From Neptunicoccus sediminis (GTDB taxonomy: Bacteria; Pseudomonadota; Alphaproteobacteria; Rhodobacterales; Rhodobacteraceae): 64,000 nt of DNA. The DNA is taken from NCBI RefSeq assembly GCF_001719615.1, contig NZ_MDVX01000011.1, forward strand, positions 124,001-188,000. Reading direction: 5' to 3'. Position numbers and translations under genes: made by a program. This document shows, piece by piece, positions 46,886-53,463 of this stretch (its first letter is position 1; each line of letters starts with the position of its first letter). The notes beneath the pieces were generated by a model, which searched no databases, was not told the DNA's origin, and saw nothing but the letters and a program-made list of their open reading frames with translations.

Positions 46886-47692
46886 CTAGACAGAAATAAG
46901 GATTTCGTCGAGCACTCCGTACTCCTGCTCCAGAGCGTGATGAAGCTCGTCAAAGAGATGAGTCTGAATGTAATTGGCAACAAACCGGCTGGGCGCCAGA
47001 ATCTCTGCCTTGCGATCCTTGCAGGCTTTCAGACTGAGACGGGAATACCAGTTTTTGAAGATTGCCTCATCCTTGTCCCGAAGCGCATGCTGCACCGCCC
47101 GCCACGTCCCTGAAGGCGCGTCTTTCGGTTCCTGCGCAATGGCGGTCACATTCGCTGCCGAGAAATCCACCTTGACCACATTCTCTGCCCGATGGGGGAA
47201 ATACCCTGCCATCCGTTCCGCGAAATCCGGCCCGACTGTTTCCCACTGCTCCGCCGAGAGTTTCGCAATAGCAGAAAGGTTCAGCACATAGGCCCCTACC
47301 CTGCCCCGCACGCCTTGGCGTTTGCAGGTCAGAATCTTGCTGTCGAGCAGCCGCTTGATTTCCCGTTTTACTGTCCGCTCGTTCACGGCCCACATCCGCG
47401 CCATGTCCCGCTGACCCACCGAAAGTTCATTCGCCCGCCAGTTATACCGCGCCGTCACCAAAGCGGTCAGTCTGAGAACTGTCATTTGCTGGGTAGCGGT
47501 TCCGTTCAGCCCGATCAGGGTCAATGCTGTGAGAATGTCATATTTAAGCGCCCCGGCTTCGGGGCCGGTTAATCGCTTGGGTTCCATAATTTGCCTGTCA
47601 TACTGTCTGCCTCTGCTGCGATCGACTTTTTTAGAAGTGTCGATTCTGTCTGCATTTGGAGAAGGCACGAAATCCCGTTTTTTGTCAATCAC
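46886..47692 (-). CDS. DnaA-like plasmid replication initiator
   Basis: This 268-residue protein (GTG start at 47692; ATG at 47587 is an alternative) has an N-terminal winged helix (about 45-150, with RDMARMWAVNERTVKREIKRLLDSKILTC) and a C-terminal segment (about 190-268) that reads like DnaA domain I: TWRAVQ, FKNWYSRL, ILAPSRFVANYI. It lacks the AAA+ and DNA-binding domains of true DnaA. Such DnaA-like initiators define a known plasmid type of Rhodobacterales. It is divergent from parAB, with iterons in between. It should recruit the replisome to this origin. Confidence 0.85.
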   Translation of the reverse strand: MIDKKRDFVPSPNADRIDTSKKVDRSRGRQYDRQIMEPKRLTGPEAGALKYDILTALTLIGLNGTATQQMTVLRLTALVTARYNWRANELSVGQRDMARMWAVNERTVKREIKRLLDSKILTCKRQGVRGRVGAYVLNLSAIAKLSAEQWETVGPDFAERMAGYFPHRAENVVKVDFSAANVTAIAQEPKDAPSGTWRAVQHALRDKDEAIFKNWYSRLSLKACKDRKAEILAPSRFVANYIQTHLFDELHHALEQEYGVLDEILISV

Positions 47693-47705
47693 TTTGAAAT
47701 ATCGG

Positions 47706-47757
47706 GAAAACCTGAAAAAATCTTAAAAAAGAGGAATAGATTAGGTTAATTGGTTAA
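47706..47757. other. AT-rich segment, candidate DNA unwinding element
   Basis: The stretch beside the iterons contains A-runs and TTAA-rich sequence with very few G or C, unlike the rest of the window. It lies between the initiator start codon and the repeats, the usual position of an unwinding region in plasmid origins. Confidence 0.5.
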
Positions 47758-47837
47758 GGGGGACATCTTGAGTGTCACCTTAAAGGAACGATGCTGTCAC
47801 CTTATTTGCCTGTATAGGCAGGTTCGCTGTCCCCCTA
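47755..47837. repeat. Iterons of the replication origin
   Basis: Four copies of a TGTC(A/C)CC(T/C)TA-like motif are visible: one inverted at 47755-47765, then direct copies beginning at 47773, 47795 and 47828. The direct copies are 22 and 33 bases apart, multiples of about one helical turn, so they face the same side of DNA. The first and last copies also form GGGGGACA/TGTCCCCC inverted ends. This is the expected layout of an initiator-binding origin. Confidence 0.7.
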
Positions 47838-47867
47838 TTTTATCTCTCAACCCGCAATCCGCGGCGT

Positions 47868-47907
47868 TTTTCCTGTTTTTCATCCGAATCGGGGGATTAC
47901 AGGAAAA
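47868..47907. promoter_or_regulatory. Inverted repeat in the parAB promoter, candidate parOP
   Basis: TTTTCCTGT (47868-47876) and ACAGGAAAA (47899-47907) are a perfect 9-base inverted repeat, with an inner ATCC/GGAT pair. It lies 77 bases before the parA start. ParA proteins with an N-terminal HTH usually repress their own operon at such a site. Confidence 0.5.
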
Positions 47908-47983
47908 TATCGAAAATTCGGTTTTGCTCTTTCTGTCAATTCCCGTTATTCAACATCTATGTGGCAAAAACAAGAGTAGAGCA

Positions 47984-49294
47984 ATGCGCAATCATAAAGA
48001 CCTGCAACAAATGAATGAACGTAGTCTCGCACAACAGGCAGCGGTGCGACGTTCAACCTTTTCCCCCGGTGAGGTTAAAACCCTCCGTCCTTTCTCTATA
48101 TGGGAGATCAGCCAGTTTATGTTTGATGTTTCCGCCGATACGTTGCGGAAGAAACTGATGGATGACCCGTCCCTCCCCCAAGGCTCCACAGAAGAAGACG
48201 GCCGTCAACGCTGGTTTTCGCTTGAAGAGATCAATGAACTGCGCCGCCGTGCCAAGTTTCGGGGCAAGACCCTGCTTCCCAAACGTCCCAAGGGGCGCGC
48301 GATGCGGGCGGCTGTGTCGAATTTCAAAGGCGGGGTTGGCAAGACCGTCGTGGCACAACACCTTGCCAATGCCGCCGCACTGGACGGGTATCGCGTGCTT
48401 TGCGTGGATTTCGATCCCCAAGCCACCTTGACCCACTCTATGGGTCTGACCGAGGTTAAAGAATGGAATACAGTGTGGGGCATTATGTGCCGCGATCTGT
48501 GTCGTGAAGCCGACCGTATTATAGAGAGCTATGATGATCCGGACGACTGCCCCTACCCGTCTTCGGAAGAGCTTCCGGATGATGTGCGCTCTATAGGTTC
48601 GCAGCGGGTGCAGGATTTTATCCAGCCAACTTGCTGGCCGACGATTGATATTATCCCCTCCTGTGCCAATGCCGCCTTTGTAGAATTTGCCTCCGCGCAA
48701 TACCGTGCCTTGCACAAAGCCTGGAGCTTTTTTGGTTGCATGGCCCGCTATCTTGATGAACTGCCGGACGACCAATACGATATTATAATTTTCGATTGCC
48801 CGCCTGCGATTGGCTATCAATCTTTGAACGCAGCTTTTGCCGCGGATATTCTGTATATCCCCTCCGGTCCCGGCTACTGGGAGTATGACAGCACGACCAG
48901 CTATCTCGGTCAGTTGGGGGATGCAATGGCGGACATCTCTGATGGTTTCGGCGCTTTGGCGGAGGATGCTGGAATTACCCTGCCCAAAGCCTTTGCTGAC
49001 ATACGGGTTTTGATGACCCGTTTTGAGAACACCAACCCGCTGCACGCTGCTATGATGGATGCGTTTCGGAACGTGTTTGGCGCAGATGTGTGCCAAAACC
49101 CGATTGAAATGACCCGCGCGGTGGAGCAATCGGGGCGCTTTCAAATGTCGGTATACGAACAGGACTACCGGCATATGACACGGGAAACATGGAAGCGGGC
49201 GCGGCACAGTTTTGATCGGGCTTATGGTGAATTTCTGGGCACCGTGCTCGATGCTTGGAACAAAAGAAACGGCAGTGAGGGAGCGAAGCAATGA
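47984..49294 (+). CDS. parA: Plasmid partition ATPase ParA, HTH type
   Basis: This 436-residue protein has an N-terminal HTH-like region (about 33-92, FSIWEISQFMFDVSADTLRK) and a deviant Walker ATPase: NFKGGVGKT (K120), DFDPQATLTHS and FDCPPAIGYQS. The HTH marks it as the class that also represses its own operon. The ATG at 47984 follows the inverted repeat at 47868. It overlaps parB by four bases. It should move plasmid copies apart with ParB bound to parS. Confidence 0.93.
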   Translation: MRNHKDLQQMNERSLAQQAAVRRSTFSPGEVKTLRPFSIWEISQFMFDVSADTLRKKLMDDPSLPQGSTEEDGRQRWFSLEEINELRRRAKFRGKTLLPKRPKGRAMRAAVSNFKGGVGKTVVAQHLANAAALDGYRVLCVDFDPQATLTHSMGLTEVKEWNTVWGIMCRDLCREADRIIESYDDPDDCPYPSSEELPDDVRSIGSQRVQDFIQPTCWPTIDIIPSCANAAFVEFASAQYRALHKAWSFFGCMARYLDELPDDQYDIIIFDCPPAIGYQSLNAAFAADILYIPSGPGYWEYDSTTSYLGQLGDAMADISDGFGALAEDAGITLPKAFADIRVLMTRFENTNPLHAAMMDAFRNVFGADVCQNPIEMTRAVEQSGRFQMSVYEQDYRHMTRETWKRARHSFDRAYGEFLGTVLDAWNKRNGSEGAKQ

Positions 49295-50343
49295 CATCTA
49301 AAAACAAATTCGGATTTGGCCCTTTAGACACATCAGGTCCGGTATCCCGCAGATCGCGCAGCGTTGGACCGATGGGCGCCGCCGTACGTGAAGCGGCAGA
49401 CAGCTTACAGGAGACCACCGAAGCGAAGGTCGAACAGCGCCGGTTGAATGCCCGCGATGCGAAAGAATTTCGCGAAGCATCGCAACAGGGTCGCGTTCTG
49501 CAAGCCATCTCTCTTTCGGAAATTTCTACCGATGAATTGCCAAGGGATCGTCTTGAATTGGATGCGGTTGCCGTATCCGCAGAGATGGACGAGCTGAAAG
49601 CCTCCATTCGCGAACGGGGTCAAAAGGAACCTATCGAAGTGTTTCCGGGGAAGGACGGGCGGTATCAACTGAAGAAAGGCTGGCGGCGGTTTACGGCCTT
49701 GTCCCAGCTTTTGGAAGAAACCGGGGATGCGCAATTCTCGACAATACTGGCCCGTGTGGATCGGGCCGAAGACGACCGGATCACCCGTTACATCGACATG
49801 GTCGAAGAAAACGTTGTTCGTGAAGACCTGACCTTCGCAGAGATGGCGCAGGTGGTGATCGCTGCCGCGCAGGATGATCAGGTAGAAGGCAGCGATCCGG
49901 ATGCTTTGGTGGGTCGGTTGTATGCTTCTCTTCATAAAATGAAACGCTCTTACATCCGCAGTTTTGTCTATCTACTCACCACGCTTGGTGATGCGCTGCA
50001 ATGGCCCAAGGACGTTTCGCGCAACCTCGGGGCTGAGGTGGCACGAGCGTTGAAGTCGGGGCAGGGTGACGTTTCAGACCTGCGGGCGTCTCTGGCAAAT
50101 TGTGCAAGCCGTGATGCGCAGGCGGTGGTTCTCGCGGGGTTTGTGTCTGGTGCTAAATCTGGCAGCGGAACGAAAACCATCAAAACCGAGCCGAAAGAGA
50201 AGTTTGAGTTCCACGTCGGTGACTTGAAAGTGACAGCACGGAACGGAGAGTGCCGGATCGTCGGGCGCGTCGACTTTGCCGGCGTTCCAAAGGATCAGTT
50301 GGAACGTGCCATTCGGGCCTTTAACGCGGCGCTTGACGACTAA
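49291..50343 (+). CDS. parB: Plasmid partition protein ParB
   Basis: This 350-residue protein has an N-terminal linker (1-80), a ParB/Srx-like CTP-binding domain (about 85-175, with QLKKGWRRFTAL and MVEENVVREDLTFAEMA), a central HTH region (about 190-255) and a C-terminal dimerisation part (about 290-350). It binds the centromere and stimulates ParA. It is translationally coupled to parA. Candidate parS palindromes begin two bases after its stop codon. Confidence 0.9.
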   Translation: MTSKNKFGFGPLDTSGPVSRRSRSVGPMGAAVREAADSLQETTEAKVEQRRLNARDAKEFREASQQGRVLQAISLSEISTDELPRDRLELDAVAVSAEMDELKASIRERGQKEPIEVFPGKDGRYQLKKGWRRFTALSQLLEETGDAQFSTILARVDRAEDDRITRYIDMVEENVVREDLTFAEMAQVVIAAAQDDQVEGSDPDALVGRLYASLHKMKRSYIRSFVYLLTTLGDALQWPKDVSRNLGAEVARALKSGQGDVSDLRASLANCASRDAQAVVLAGFVSGAKSGSGTKTIKTEPKEKFEFHVGDLKVTARNGECRIVGRVDFAGVPKDQLERAIRAFNAALDD

Positions 50344-50686: not shown

Positions 50687-52126
50687 CTAAACAGAGATGT
50701 TCTGCGCGAGTTGATGGGCGCGGGTGAGGTCGAGGCGCAAAAGTTCGCTCGCCTCTTGTCGCGCCACCGGATCACGCAAGCGCAAAAGATAGGAGGGGTG
50801 GAACGAAAGCACCACCGGAGTTCCGTCATCAAGCAGATGTACCTTGCCGCGTCGTTTGCCGATCCCTTCGCCATTTCCGGTCAGGGACTGGGCGGCACTG
50901 GCACCCAGCGCAATAATCGCGCGGGGTTGAACGGCGGTCCGCTCTGCATCCAGCCACCATTTGCACTGCTCAATTTCGGTCGTGCTCGGCTGTTGGTGAA
51001 TGCGCCTTTTGCCACGGGGTATGAATTTGAAATGCTTCACCGCATTGGTCACATAGGCGCGGCTGCGATCCACATCCGCTTTCGCGCAAATTTCGTCAAA
51101 CAATTTGCCAGCAGGACCAACAAAAGGCCTCCCCGCGAGGTCTTCTGTGTCGCCAGGTTGTTCTCCGACAATCATCAGGGGCGCATCCATCGGACCTTCG
51201 CCGTGCACCGCTTGCGTGGCGTGGCAATGCAGCGGGCATCGGGTGCAGGCGGAAATCTCGGCTCGCAGCGCATCCGCGTCACCAGACCAGACCGACTCTG
51301 GCAGACGCGCCAGTTGCTGCTGTACCTTTTCGACCCGCAGCGGCGGAAGCGTGGGAGCAGCCTCGTTCATTGCGCGCACGCGGGCAGGGGCCGATGCGAT
51401 AAGATCGGGAATCGCGGCGGCCTCTGGCATATTCTTCCAGTATTTCTTAGGCATCTCTGATTGCATCGCTTTCACTTTCACCCGTGCCGGATTGAAAATA
51501 TTGCGAAAATAGGTGGTCCAAAGCTGCTCGCTTGCGTCTTCGGGCAGGGGTGGTTTGGACTGTCCGGCGCTAAACGCGATCTTCCCATCGACAAAACTTG
51601 CGGTGACGCTGGGCGTGATGATGCGCCAGTCCATATCTCCGAACCGGCGCGCAAAGAACGGTGCGGTGGGTTCGACGGTGAAATGGCTGGGTTCAAACCA
51701 TGCGGCAAAAGAGCGGCGCGGATCCTCGGGGGAGCCGAGTTCTCGGAAGCGGACGAACGCCTTCATTTTATGCTGGCACCTGTGCACGTTTTTTTCCATC
51801 CGCCGCAACTGCGCCAGTTCCGGATCTGCCCGATCGCTGAGCAGATGGGGTGTGTCGCGCAGCCTCCACAAGACACGGTAGAGTAGGGCAAAGCGGCTGG
51901 GATCGCTGTGCCAGACAACGGAACGGGCGATGGAAATGAACTCTTTCGGGACCGTCAAAACCTTGTCAGTCCGGGGCGGCGGTAAGCTATCCCATAGGCC
52001 GGCAGGGGTCGTTTCATCCCCCCAACTGACATCGCAAGGCGCGACATTCGCGTTGATCAAACCCCGTGCCGCATCCCGCCACGCCTGCGCGGTGCCGATC
52101 ATTGGCATGGTCATCCGAATCGTCAT
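50687..52126 (-). CDS. udgX: UdgX-type uracil-DNA glycosylase with N-terminal DUF4130 domain
   Basis: This 479-residue protein joins a DUF4130 domain (about 1-260) to a family 4-like UDG domain (about 285-479). The UDG part has an iron-sulfur CTRCPLHC set (C294, C297), GEQPGD (321-326), the UdgX-specific loop RGKRRIHQ with H377, and HPSYLLR. In characterised UdgX the histidine forms a covalent bond to DNA at the excised uracil. It overlaps the radical SAM gene by four bases (ATGA) and shares its SOS-box promoter. The role of DUF4130 is unknown. Confidence 0.93.
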   Translation of the reverse strand: MTIRMTMPMIGTAQAWRDAARGLINANVAPCDVSWGDETTPAGLWDSLPPPRTDKVLTVPKEFISIARSVVWHSDPSRFALLYRVLWRLRDTPHLLSDRADPELAQLRRMEKNVHRCQHKMKAFVRFRELGSPEDPRRSFAAWFEPSHFTVEPTAPFFARRFGDMDWRIITPSVTASFVDGKIAFSAGQSKPPLPEDASEQLWTTYFRNIFNPARVKVKAMQSEMPKKYWKNMPEAAAIPDLIASAPARVRAMNEAAPTLPPLRVEKVQQQLARLPESVWSGDADALRAEISACTRCPLHCHATQAVHGEGPMDAPLMIVGEQPGDTEDLAGRPFVGPAGKLFDEICAKADVDRSRAYVTNAVKHFKFIPRGKRRIHQQPSTTEIEQCKWWLDAERTAVQPRAIIALGASAAQSLTGNGEGIGKRRGKVHLLDDGTPVVLSFHPSYLLRLRDPVARQEASELLRLDLTRAHQLAQNISV

Positions 52127-53358
52127 AACAGGCTGAGTTGCTCTGGCGGGGGGGCGAATTTGGCCCGCAAATCCGCGCTGTCGGTCAGGGCTGCGGGCGA
52201 CCAACCGGTCGCCGTGACAAAGGCGCGGGCTTTCTTCATCGAAACCCCCATGCGGGTCAGATCCTCATAGCGCAGATTTCTGTGCCGGCGGGTGGAGAGA
52301 ATCCGGTTTACCGTGCGCACTCCGAAACCGGGAACGCGCAGCAACAGTTCCCGGCTGGCCCTGTTCACATCAAGCGGAAAGAGACCCCGATGGGCCAGCG
52401 CCCAAGCCAGTTTCGGATCATAGTCCAGTTGCAGATTCCCGTCCTGTGTCACCGAAGTAATTTCGTCCAGTTCAAACCCGTAGAACCGCAACAGCCAGTC
52501 CGCCTGATAGAGCCGGTGTTCCCGTTGCAGGGGAGGGCGGATCAGGGGCAGGTTTTTTGAACTGTCGGGGATGGGGGAAAAGGCCGAATAATAAACCCGT
52601 TTCAGCCCGTAGCTGGAATAAAGACGCGTGGACTGGCCCAGAATGGTCGCATCGTTAGAAGCATCCGCACCGACAATCACCTGCGTAGACTGACCGGCAG
52701 GTGCGAATTTCGGCGGTCGCTTTCCTGTGTGAGAGCGGTCTTTGCTATTTTCCTTGCGCAACCGGACGTGTCCCATCGCCTTGCGAATCTGTGCGGGATC
52801 CTTTTCAGGGGCGTATTGGGTGACTGCCGCATCGGTGGGCAGTTCCACATTGATCGACAACCGGTCCGCCAGCAGTCCCGCCTCGGCTATCAGTTCGGGC
52901 GCAGCGTCCGGGATCGTTTTAAGGTGGATATAGCCGCGGAAATTTTCTTCATGTCGCAGCTTTCGGGCGATCTGTACCATTTCGGACATGGTCACATCAG
53001 GAGAGCGGATAATCCCCGACGACAGGAACAGGCCCTCGATGTAATTTCTGCGGTAAAATTCAATGGTTAGCTTAACGACTTCATCCACTGTGAATCGCGC
53101 TCTTTCCACATTGGAAGACACCCGGTTCACGCAATAGGCGCAGTCGTAAATGCAGAAATTCGTCATCAGGATTTTCAACAGCGAAATGCAGCGCCCGTCC
53201 GGTGCGTATGCATGACAGATACCGCTGCCAGTATTAGACCCGAGCCCCTTACCGTCGCGGGAATCCCGTTTGGTCGACCCGGAGGAGGCGCAGGACGCAT
53301 CATATTTCGCAGCATCGCTGAGAATGGCAAGTTTGGATTCTATGGATCGTGTGCTCAT
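52123..53358 (-). CDS. Radical SAM protein, putative DNA modification/repair
   Basis: This 411-residue protein has the radical SAM cluster motif CIYDCAYC (C69, C73, C76) near the start and a helix-hairpin-helix-like C-terminal region (LLRVPGFGVRTVNRILSTRRHRNL) expected to bind DNA. It belongs to the radical SAM family that is regularly encoded next to UdgX-DUF4130 proteins. I chose the ATG at 53358 because the earlier in-frame start at 53379 would lie upstream of the SOS box (53361-53375). The reaction is unknown; radical chemistry on a damaged base is inferred. Confidence 0.92.
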   Translation of the reverse strand: MSTRSIESKLAILSDAAKYDASCASSGSTKRDSRDGKGLGSNTGSGICHAYAPDGRCISLLKILMTNFCIYDCAYCVNRVSSNVERARFTVDEVVKLTIEFYRRNYIEGLFLSSGIIRSPDVTMSEMVQIARKLRHEENFRGYIHLKTIPDAAPELIAEAGLLADRLSINVELPTDAAVTQYAPEKDPAQIRKAMGHVRLRKENSKDRSHTGKRPPKFAPAGQSTQVIVGADASNDATILGQSTRLYSSYGLKRVYYSAFSPIPDSSKNLPLIRPPLQREHRLYQADWLLRFYGFELDEITSVTQDGNLQLDYDPKLAWALAHRGLFPLDVNRASRELLLRVPGFGVRTVNRILSTRRHRNLRYEDLTRMGVSMKKARAFVTATGWSPAALTDSADLRAKFAPPPEQLSLL

Positions 53359-53360
53359 GT

Positions 53361-53375
53361 GTTCACTATATGTTC
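53361..53375 (-). promoter_or_regulatory. LexA/SOS box
   Basis: GTTC-ACTATAT-GTTC is an exact GTTC-N7-GTTC, the LexA site of alphaproteobacteria. It lies three bases before the radical SAM start codon. LexA bound here would block the operon until DNA damage. Confidence 0.85.
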
Positions 53376-53463
53376 TCATCTCGTCAGAAACAAGAGGAAC
53401 ACCCGTATAGCGTGCGACCTCCGGTGGAAATTCGCTTATAACGTAGCGGCAGGCAGCACGGCG

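Follow-up and report, generated by a model that had tools for sequence, protein, structure and literature searches.

The 64,000-nucleotide (nt) stretch of Neptunicoccus sediminis DNA analyzed here (contig NZ_MDVX01000011.1, positions 124,001 to 188,000 of the forward strand; hereafter the window) carries two minus-strand genes that together span 50687-53358. The first encodes a radical S-adenosylmethionine (SAM) protein and the second encodes a protein in which a DUF4130 domain is fused to UdgX, a uracil-DNA glycosylase (UDG) domain (Table 1). Upstream lies a LexA box that reads GAACATATAGTGAAC on the gene strand and GTTCACTATATGTTC on the plus strand and is of the alphaproteobacterial LexA type. 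A first-pass annotation of this DNA had proposed an SOS-controlled operon in which the radical SAM protein and UdgX work together, and several of its observations hold: the ATGA overlap of stop and start codons argues for translational coupling of the two genes, the CxxxCxxC of the radical SAM protein is in place (C69/C73/C76), and UdgX retains the KRRIHQ trapping loop with H377 in the numbering of the 479-residue protein (H403 when counted from a TTG start listed at 52204). The GTTC-N7-GTTC site upstream of the radical SAM gene is likewise perfect, but the spacing given for it was off by one, as the box ends 2 nt and not three before the ATG at 53358. A mechanical list of open reading frames (ORFs) uses an upstream ATG at 53379, which would place the box inside the gene; we favored the start at 53358 because relatives keep a start codon directly after the box.

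Table 1 Features of the radical SAM and DUF4130-UdgX operon, in window positions.
Feature	Position	Strand	Basis
Radical SAM protein, TIGR03916 (rSAM_link_UDG), 411 aa	52123..53358	-	TIGR03916 580.3 bits versus cut-off 343.5; PF04055 34.1 versus 29.5
DUF4130-UdgX fusion gene, 479 aa from ATG	50687-52126	-	Start overlaps radical SAM stop as ATGA
Stop-start overlap ATGA, translational coupling	52123..52126	-	Sequence
LexA box GAAC-N7-GAAC (GTTC-N7-GTTC on plus strand)	53361..53375	-	Conserved upstream in 54/56 scanned loci of the window's class
Predicted -35 element TTGTTT	53388..53393	-	17 nt before -10; read from sequence
Predicted -10 element TATAGT, within LexA box	53365..53370	-	Read from sequence
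CxxxCxxC of radical SAM [4Fe-4S] cluster (C69, C73, C76)	53131..53154	-	Invariant in 56/56 aligned sequences
Stretch with invariant C23, C48, C57 and H49; candidate auxiliary-cluster ligands	53188..53292	-	56/56
Helix-hairpin-helix-like segment, residues 329-359, probable DNA contact	52282..52374	-	Sub-cut-off HHH_3, HHH
DUF4130/TIGR03915 domain, residues 11-236	51419..52096	-	TIGR03915 190.3 bits versus 112.25; PF13566 130.1 versus 27
UdgX domain, residues 238-468	50723..51415	-	TIGR03914 316.5 bits versus cut-off 189.95; 6ajo E 5.4e-48
R-loop KRRIHQ with H377	50993..51010	-	H aligned in 43/47 sequences

The GTTC-N7-GTTC motif alone is no evidence of LexA control, because the window holds one match where 2.06 were expected from shuffled sequences and the whole genome holds 141, against 98 for the reversed control pattern. 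The evidence is the position of the box together with its conservation. In the class of the window (Alphaproteobacteria, the host family being Rhodobacteraceae) the box lay no more than 150 bp upstream of the radical SAM family match at 35 of 37 loci, and each of four scrambled motifs was found in 0/37 of the same upstream regions. These loci comprised 21 from a family sample and 16 from a class sample, with partial matches at contig ends (L052 and L069) and matches under the cut-off (L070-L081) excluded. A larger scan found the box at 54 of 56 loci of the class (57 less L035, which the anchor missed and which has the box in the 37-locus scan). Eight scrambled controls, by comparison, matched 0-3 of these 56 loci, 0-1 of 22 loci from other Pseudomonadota and 0-5 of 71 Bacteroidota loci, and the union of four control palindromes matched 10, 1 and 5, respectively. 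The 22 are what remained after two of 24 loci were dropped; L144 and L147, which had none of the boxes in an earlier scan, were left out of the larger scans, as was L185 in one scan, and of the 53 genomes of the phylum that exceeded the cut-off, seven, all of the window's class, were left out of the locus set. Closer to the window, the other two of the three operon-bearing genomes in the host genus have an identical box, and a box of the same type, GAACGCTTGTAGAAC, precedes the family match of the host lexA gene by 62 bp. Both GTTCN7GTTC for Caulobacter and the E. coli box appear in a table of PMC9578287.

The placement of the boxes within the alphaproteobacterial promoters was also regular. 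Of 55 boxes, 49 are GAAC-oriented, and an in-frame start codon follows the end of 39 at a distance of 1-6 nt. The spacer opens with A, T and A in 43, 45 and 45 of the 49 GAAC-oriented boxes, so that box positions 6 and 7 are T and A in 45/49 each. In 24 of the 39 close-start cases the trinucleotide TTG precedes the box by 16-18 nt (by exactly 18 in 15 of them), with 0-3 occurrences at other single positions, and therefore a -35 element would stand about 17 nt before a -10 element that lies within the box. A Shine-Dalgarno-like core was seen in 1/39 of the close-start cases versus 3/15 of those having a more distant start. From this anatomy we infer that the LexA operator is built over the -10 element of a transcript that has little or no leader. 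The prediction rests on conservation because a consensus promoter scan did not report the operon promoter; its one other match was no more than shuffled sequences gave.

Outside the window's class the box changes. The GTTC type was found at 0/22 loci of other Pseudomonadota, where CTGT-N8-ACAG, the E. coli type, lies upstream at 12 and three more are one base off. Among the 71 Bacteroidota loci, 30 have CTAA-N5-TTAG or GGA-N5-TCC upstream (31 if the searched interval reaches into the coding start), both of which are given as Bacteroidota motifs in the relevant passage of PMC8565304. The comparison makes the case for SOS control convincing, with 54 of 56 boxed loci in the window's class and many loci elsewhere carrying the box type of their own lineage, and it supports the LexA control and the probable role in DNA damage that had been proposed. 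That a widespread radical SAM enzyme stands under completely differing lineage LexA-type boxes is a strong sign of a real function in the damage response.

Some Bacteroidota loci are notable for their neighbors or boxes. When neighboring ORFs of 80 loci were clustered, the largest cluster (25 loci) resembled antisense ORFs of the radical SAM gene, and the second consisted of 12 flavobacterial loci with a homologous helix-turn-helix (HTH)-S24-like ORF, 3/12 of which were found by a regular expression. Two of the 12 were scanned with Pfam and proved to encode an HTH and an S24-peptidase domain, as LexA does, and to be divergent from the radical SAM gene. In these two Flavobacteriaceae loci (L140:3087-3983 and L134:3083-3889) the common intergenic region holds three or four GGA-N5-TCC boxes, and the HTH-S24 gene is presumed to encode a LexA-like repressor adjoining its target. 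At the Chryseobacterium loci L112-L114 an upstream GAAC-N7-GAAC (of the GAACTAATTTTGAAC type) replaces the two Bacteroidota motifs.

The same loci also bear on which proteins belong together. By use of hidden Markov models built from the loci of this analysis, we found a DUF4130 domain after the radical SAM gene at 55/57 loci of the window's class, 67/70 in Bacteroidota and 10/11 in other Pseudomonadota. A UDG domain is seen there at 45/57, 0/70 and 2/11, respectively, the first count being a lower bound as the loci extend 1.5 kb past the match or stop at contig ends. Thirteen further loci outside that count had DUF4130 in 13/13 and a UDG domain in 4/13. In 34 whole genomes, ten with a stated completeness and 33 selected because DUF4130 is present there but the fusion is not, TIGR03914 exceeded its cut-off in two, the window's own genome and one other of its class. 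In the family sample of 120 genomes, TIGR03916, TIGR03915 and TIGR03914 exceed their cut-offs in one and the same set of 21, and in one other genome (G117) TIGR03915 matches weakly, at 53 bits, without a radical SAM gene. Because DUF4130 is regular at the loci while the UDG domain is often absent, the comparison identifies the radical SAM protein and DUF4130 as the core pair and UdgX as an add-on. The functional pairing of radical SAM protein and UdgX put forward in the first-pass annotation is therefore not upheld: judged from gene content, capture of the product by UdgX cannot be a general requirement of the radical SAM reaction, although such a dependence may hold at loci that carry the fusion. 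The proteins to purify together are hence the radical SAM protein and DUF4130.

The motifs of the UdgX domain are intact (motif A GEQPG at 321, the R-loop KRRIH, and motif B HPSYLLR at 443), and the R-loop histidine is aligned in 43 of the 47 sequences used from 51 UDG-bearing proteins. The other four (three with R, one with a gap) are artefacts of extraction or alignment, as all show KRR[ILV]H; the loop is otherwise variable, with R374 in 33/47. The closest solved relatives, 6ajo and other UdgX entries, which we take to be of Mycobacterium smegmatis origin, have the same GEQPG, KRRIH and HPS motifs. The domain studied here differs from them in being fused behind DUF4130 and in its location in a predicted SOS operon, together with a radical SAM gene.

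The first protein of the operon belongs to the radical SAM superfamily by its CxxxCxxC in the barrel, its PF04055 score over the cut-off and its fold matches. The 56-sequence alignment has six invariant cysteines, the three of that motif plus C23, C48 and C57, and H49 is invariant as well. The additional cysteines may bind an auxiliary iron-sulfur cluster, which can only be proposed because the AlphaFold model (predicted local distance difference test score, pLDDT, 74.5) has its poorly modeled stretches precisely at residues 18-49 (under 50) and 70-82. The barrel resembles HydE (Foldseek E 2e-6) and aligns with lipoyl synthase over 226 residues at 3.5 Å (Z 16.0), and pyruvate formate-lyase activase, MiaB and RlmN are also among its structural neighbors. 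Lipoyl synthase, HydE and biotin synthase are the closest solved radical SAM barrels; identity in the barrel is about 6-17 %, the extensions are different, and sulfur insertion is without evidence here. The helix-hairpin-helix (HhH)-like end noted earlier is a probable one, with E values of 1.6e-4 for HHH_3 (22.1 of 27 bits in an 87-residue tail) and 1.5e-3 for HHH, both below the Pfam curated cut-offs, and a weak RuvA match of the segment (E 0.78). With an E value of 0.001 or better, TIGR03916 was the sole match in NCBIfam. Identity between the protein and the products of Sulfitobacter and Phaeobacter plasmid genes is 86-87 %.

For DUF4130 (model pLDDT 79.7) the residues invariant across 132 sequences are R126, F127, P146, F158, R161, W167, W203, Y206, R215, P226, W230 and E235. 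Because these are aromatic and basic with a single acid, they suggest that the domain binds a nucleic acid or a base rather than acting as a metal-dependent nuclease. A DHHA1/RecJ-like fold was considered and found unsupported: the Z scores of 7.0-7.6 stand against Foldseek E values of 0.1 or worse and a profile probability of 0.1 % (a rough comparison, as the alignment holds one misplaced row, L221), and the superpositions on RecJ (Z 7.0-7.2, root-mean-square deviation 4.2-4.4, 165-174 residues aligned) fall under the trust level of the tool. In a passage of PMC3765255 DUF4130 is predicted to be a mutagenesis-related enzyme tied to SplB-like radical SAM proteins and uracil DNA glycosylases.

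The operon is patchily distributed, occurring in 21/120 genomes of the family and 3/33 of the genus, and is frequent on plasmids: PLSDB holds 158 plasmid records with it, most often from Phaeobacter (58), Paracoccus (15) and Azospirillum (11). Genes annotated as cisplatin-damage DNA ligase, ligase-associated exonuclease and topoisomerase IB occur no more than 7 kb from it on a Phaeobacter inhibens plasmid. In the window, a plasmid-type replication and partition module (46886-50343) stands about 340 bp from the operon and consists of a protein with a DnaA N-terminal domain (46886-47692), a ParA-like protein (47750-49294) and a ParB-like protein (49291-50343). Given this ParA/ParB-like pair and the DnaA N-terminal protein near the operon, a plasmid or chromid is a possible identity for the 293-kb contig.

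We think it probable that the operon is a LexA-repressed, damage-induced DNA-repair module in which a lesion is handled jointly by the radical SAM protein and DUF4130 while UdgX protects uracil or abasic sites. A role on DNA is suggested by the HhH-like segment, the fusion to UdgX and the repair-gene neighbors on the P. inhibens plasmid. On this reading DNA damage would lead to cleavage of LexA and synthesis of the nearly leaderless mRNA. The radical SAM protein would dock on damaged DNA through its HhH end, and its 5'-deoxyadenosyl radical would reverse or convert the lesion with DUF4130 as a needed partner, either as lesion reader or for a second catalytic step. The fused UdgX would covalently capture uracil or the resulting abasic sites and so protect them during error-prone SOS synthesis and recombination. 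A more specific version, which we offer tentatively as a possibility that may well be wrong, is that the system represents a second class of radical-based DNA lesion repair independent of SplB. It would have an auxiliary cluster on C23/C48/C57, DUF4130 as an aromatic- and arginine-rich lesion reader, and UdgX as a lineage-added covalent guard of uracil or abasic sites opened in SOS mutagenesis.

A number of observations weigh against a SOS-induced DNA-repair module. None of their lineage boxes was found at 41/71 Bacteroidota and 7/22 other Pseudomonadota loci, and since many loci come from related species the box counts are not independent. The seven box-less Pseudomonadota loci include four from Moraxellaceae plus L082 (its protein is 88-91 % identical to that of Psychrobacter); to our knowledge, LexA is missing at least from Acinetobacter. 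The fold neighbors of the radical SAM protein presumably act on small molecules, peptides or RNA, and not on DNA, and the HhH scores are those of sub-threshold matches. DUF4130 has no recognized fold, as a Foldseek search found nothing at E 0.001 or better and the best Z score was 7.6. The operon on a Sulfitobacter pontiacus conjugative plasmid is without a listed repair neighbor, and the main texts of three Caulobacter SOS papers (PMC12700426, PMC6120978 and PMC13384398) mention neither radical SAM nor uracil.

The alternatives fare less well. That the LexA box is a chance match is hardly credible: although 2.06 matches are expected in a window of this size, the box is common to 54/56 relatives and 39/55 boxes end 1-6 nt before the start codon. 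The pairing originally proposed, in which UdgX traps a base that the radical SAM enzyme has repaired or marked, has in its favor the translational coupling, the intact trapping motifs and the restriction of over-cut-off UdgX to the 21/120 family genomes that have the radical SAM gene. We nevertheless consider it unlikely, given that no UDG domain follows the gene at any of the 70 Bacteroidota loci, that it does so at only 2 of 11 loci in other Pseudomonadota, and that UdgX over the cut-off is missing from 32/34 genomes (33 of them picked for lacking the fusion). Moreover, UdgX is said in PMC10359453 to excise and capture uracil by itself.

It is also improbable that the radical SAM enzyme modifies a protein (such as DUF4130 or a repair factor) or RNA during the SOS response. 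The fold neighbors lipoyl synthase, pyruvate formate-lyase activase, MiaB and RlmN fit such a reaction, and lipoyl synthase, too, has extra N-terminal cysteines ahead of its radical SAM motif; the HhH-like end, the UdgX fusion and the repair neighbors on one plasmid instead indicate DNA. An anti-phage or DNA-hypermodification system in place of repair would suit the patchy occurrence in family and genus and the 158 plasmid records, but seems very unlikely in view of the LexA boxes across several lineages and of the PADLOC anti-phage models, none of which matched either protein at E 0.01 or better. Nor does a viral origin find support. A scan of viral contigs gave 2 loci and ten phage records matched; the one of these that was read, L246 (CAKLQH020000003.1, Acinetobacter phage MD-2021a), has chromosomal-type genes, glyQS among them, beside its radical SAM-DUF4130 pair and looks like bacterial DNA filed as phage.

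The DNA-repair module we favor has to be set beside what has been reported. Spore photoproduct lyase, SplB, is a radical SAM enzyme that repairs a DNA lesion, and the likeness lies in the radical SAM chemistry proposed on damaged DNA. The operon protein differs from SplB by its three extra invariant cysteines, its HhH-like end and its DUF4130 partner, and it matches TIGR03916 only in NCBIfam, a library that we believe to hold SplB models. With regard to the families TIGR03916, TIGR03915 and TIGR03914, all three are matched over the cut-offs with only ordinary divergence. We take COG4277 to be the radical SAM/HhH family of this operon. According to PMC8565304, a COG1573-COG4277 operon appears in the inferred SOS networks of Bacteroidetes and is predicted to be SOS-regulated; earlier reports cited there place a putative UDG-based repair system under SOS regulation in Verrucomicrobia (Erill 2016) and Alphaproteobacteria (da Rocha 2008). 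Hence, SOS control of the operon is already known and is not new. The likeness to the COG1573-COG4277 operon is in the two genes and the LexA control, whereas the Bacteroidota loci in our set have DUF4130, with a UDG domain beside the gene in 0/70. Promoter anatomy is not described in the passages of PMC8565304 on that operon. The uracil-DNA glycosylase label may thus not fit the Bacteroidota operon and could mislead there. Caulobacter CC2333 is listed among four UDG-family genes in PMC1839093, and a LexA regulon table for Streptomyces venezuelae (PMC9380542) lists a radical SAM gene whose family is unstated in that table. A full-text search, from which most subscription papers are missing, returned no paper joining UdgX and radical SAM and, among the matches listed, no functional study of the operon.

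What is new here is modest: the corrected core pair, the prediction of a leaderless promoter, and the retention of control across changing LexA boxes at the level of single loci. Reversal of a lesion by the pair, if it occurs, would add to the few radical-based kinds of DNA repair. It would also provide a natural context for UdgX, a genome-technology tool whose role is described as largely unknown in PMC10359453.

Beyond the operon, the gene at 56022-57088 matches a sulfopyruvate decarboxylase alpha model just over the cut-off (148.9 of 147.95 bits). It is followed by an ORF that reads as a thiamine-enzyme-like protein and then by two transporter-like ORFs without an NCBIfam match.

Elsewhere in the host genome, 12 regions among the GTTC-N7-GTTC matches listed were read, and beside three of the boxes lie genes that we take from their appearance to be uvrA, imuA and tag. 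At L201:1209-1245 (G000:C60:17708-17744) three head-to-tail boxes with common half sites lie between convergent ORF ends, and no other listed ORF of at least 90 residues starts close by; a small SOS gene or RNA is possibly located there. At L202:1167-1218 (G000:C55:26666-26717) three boxes, two of them overlapping and one inverted, fall within 52 bp and adjoin the 3' end of what is presumably a recG-like gene.

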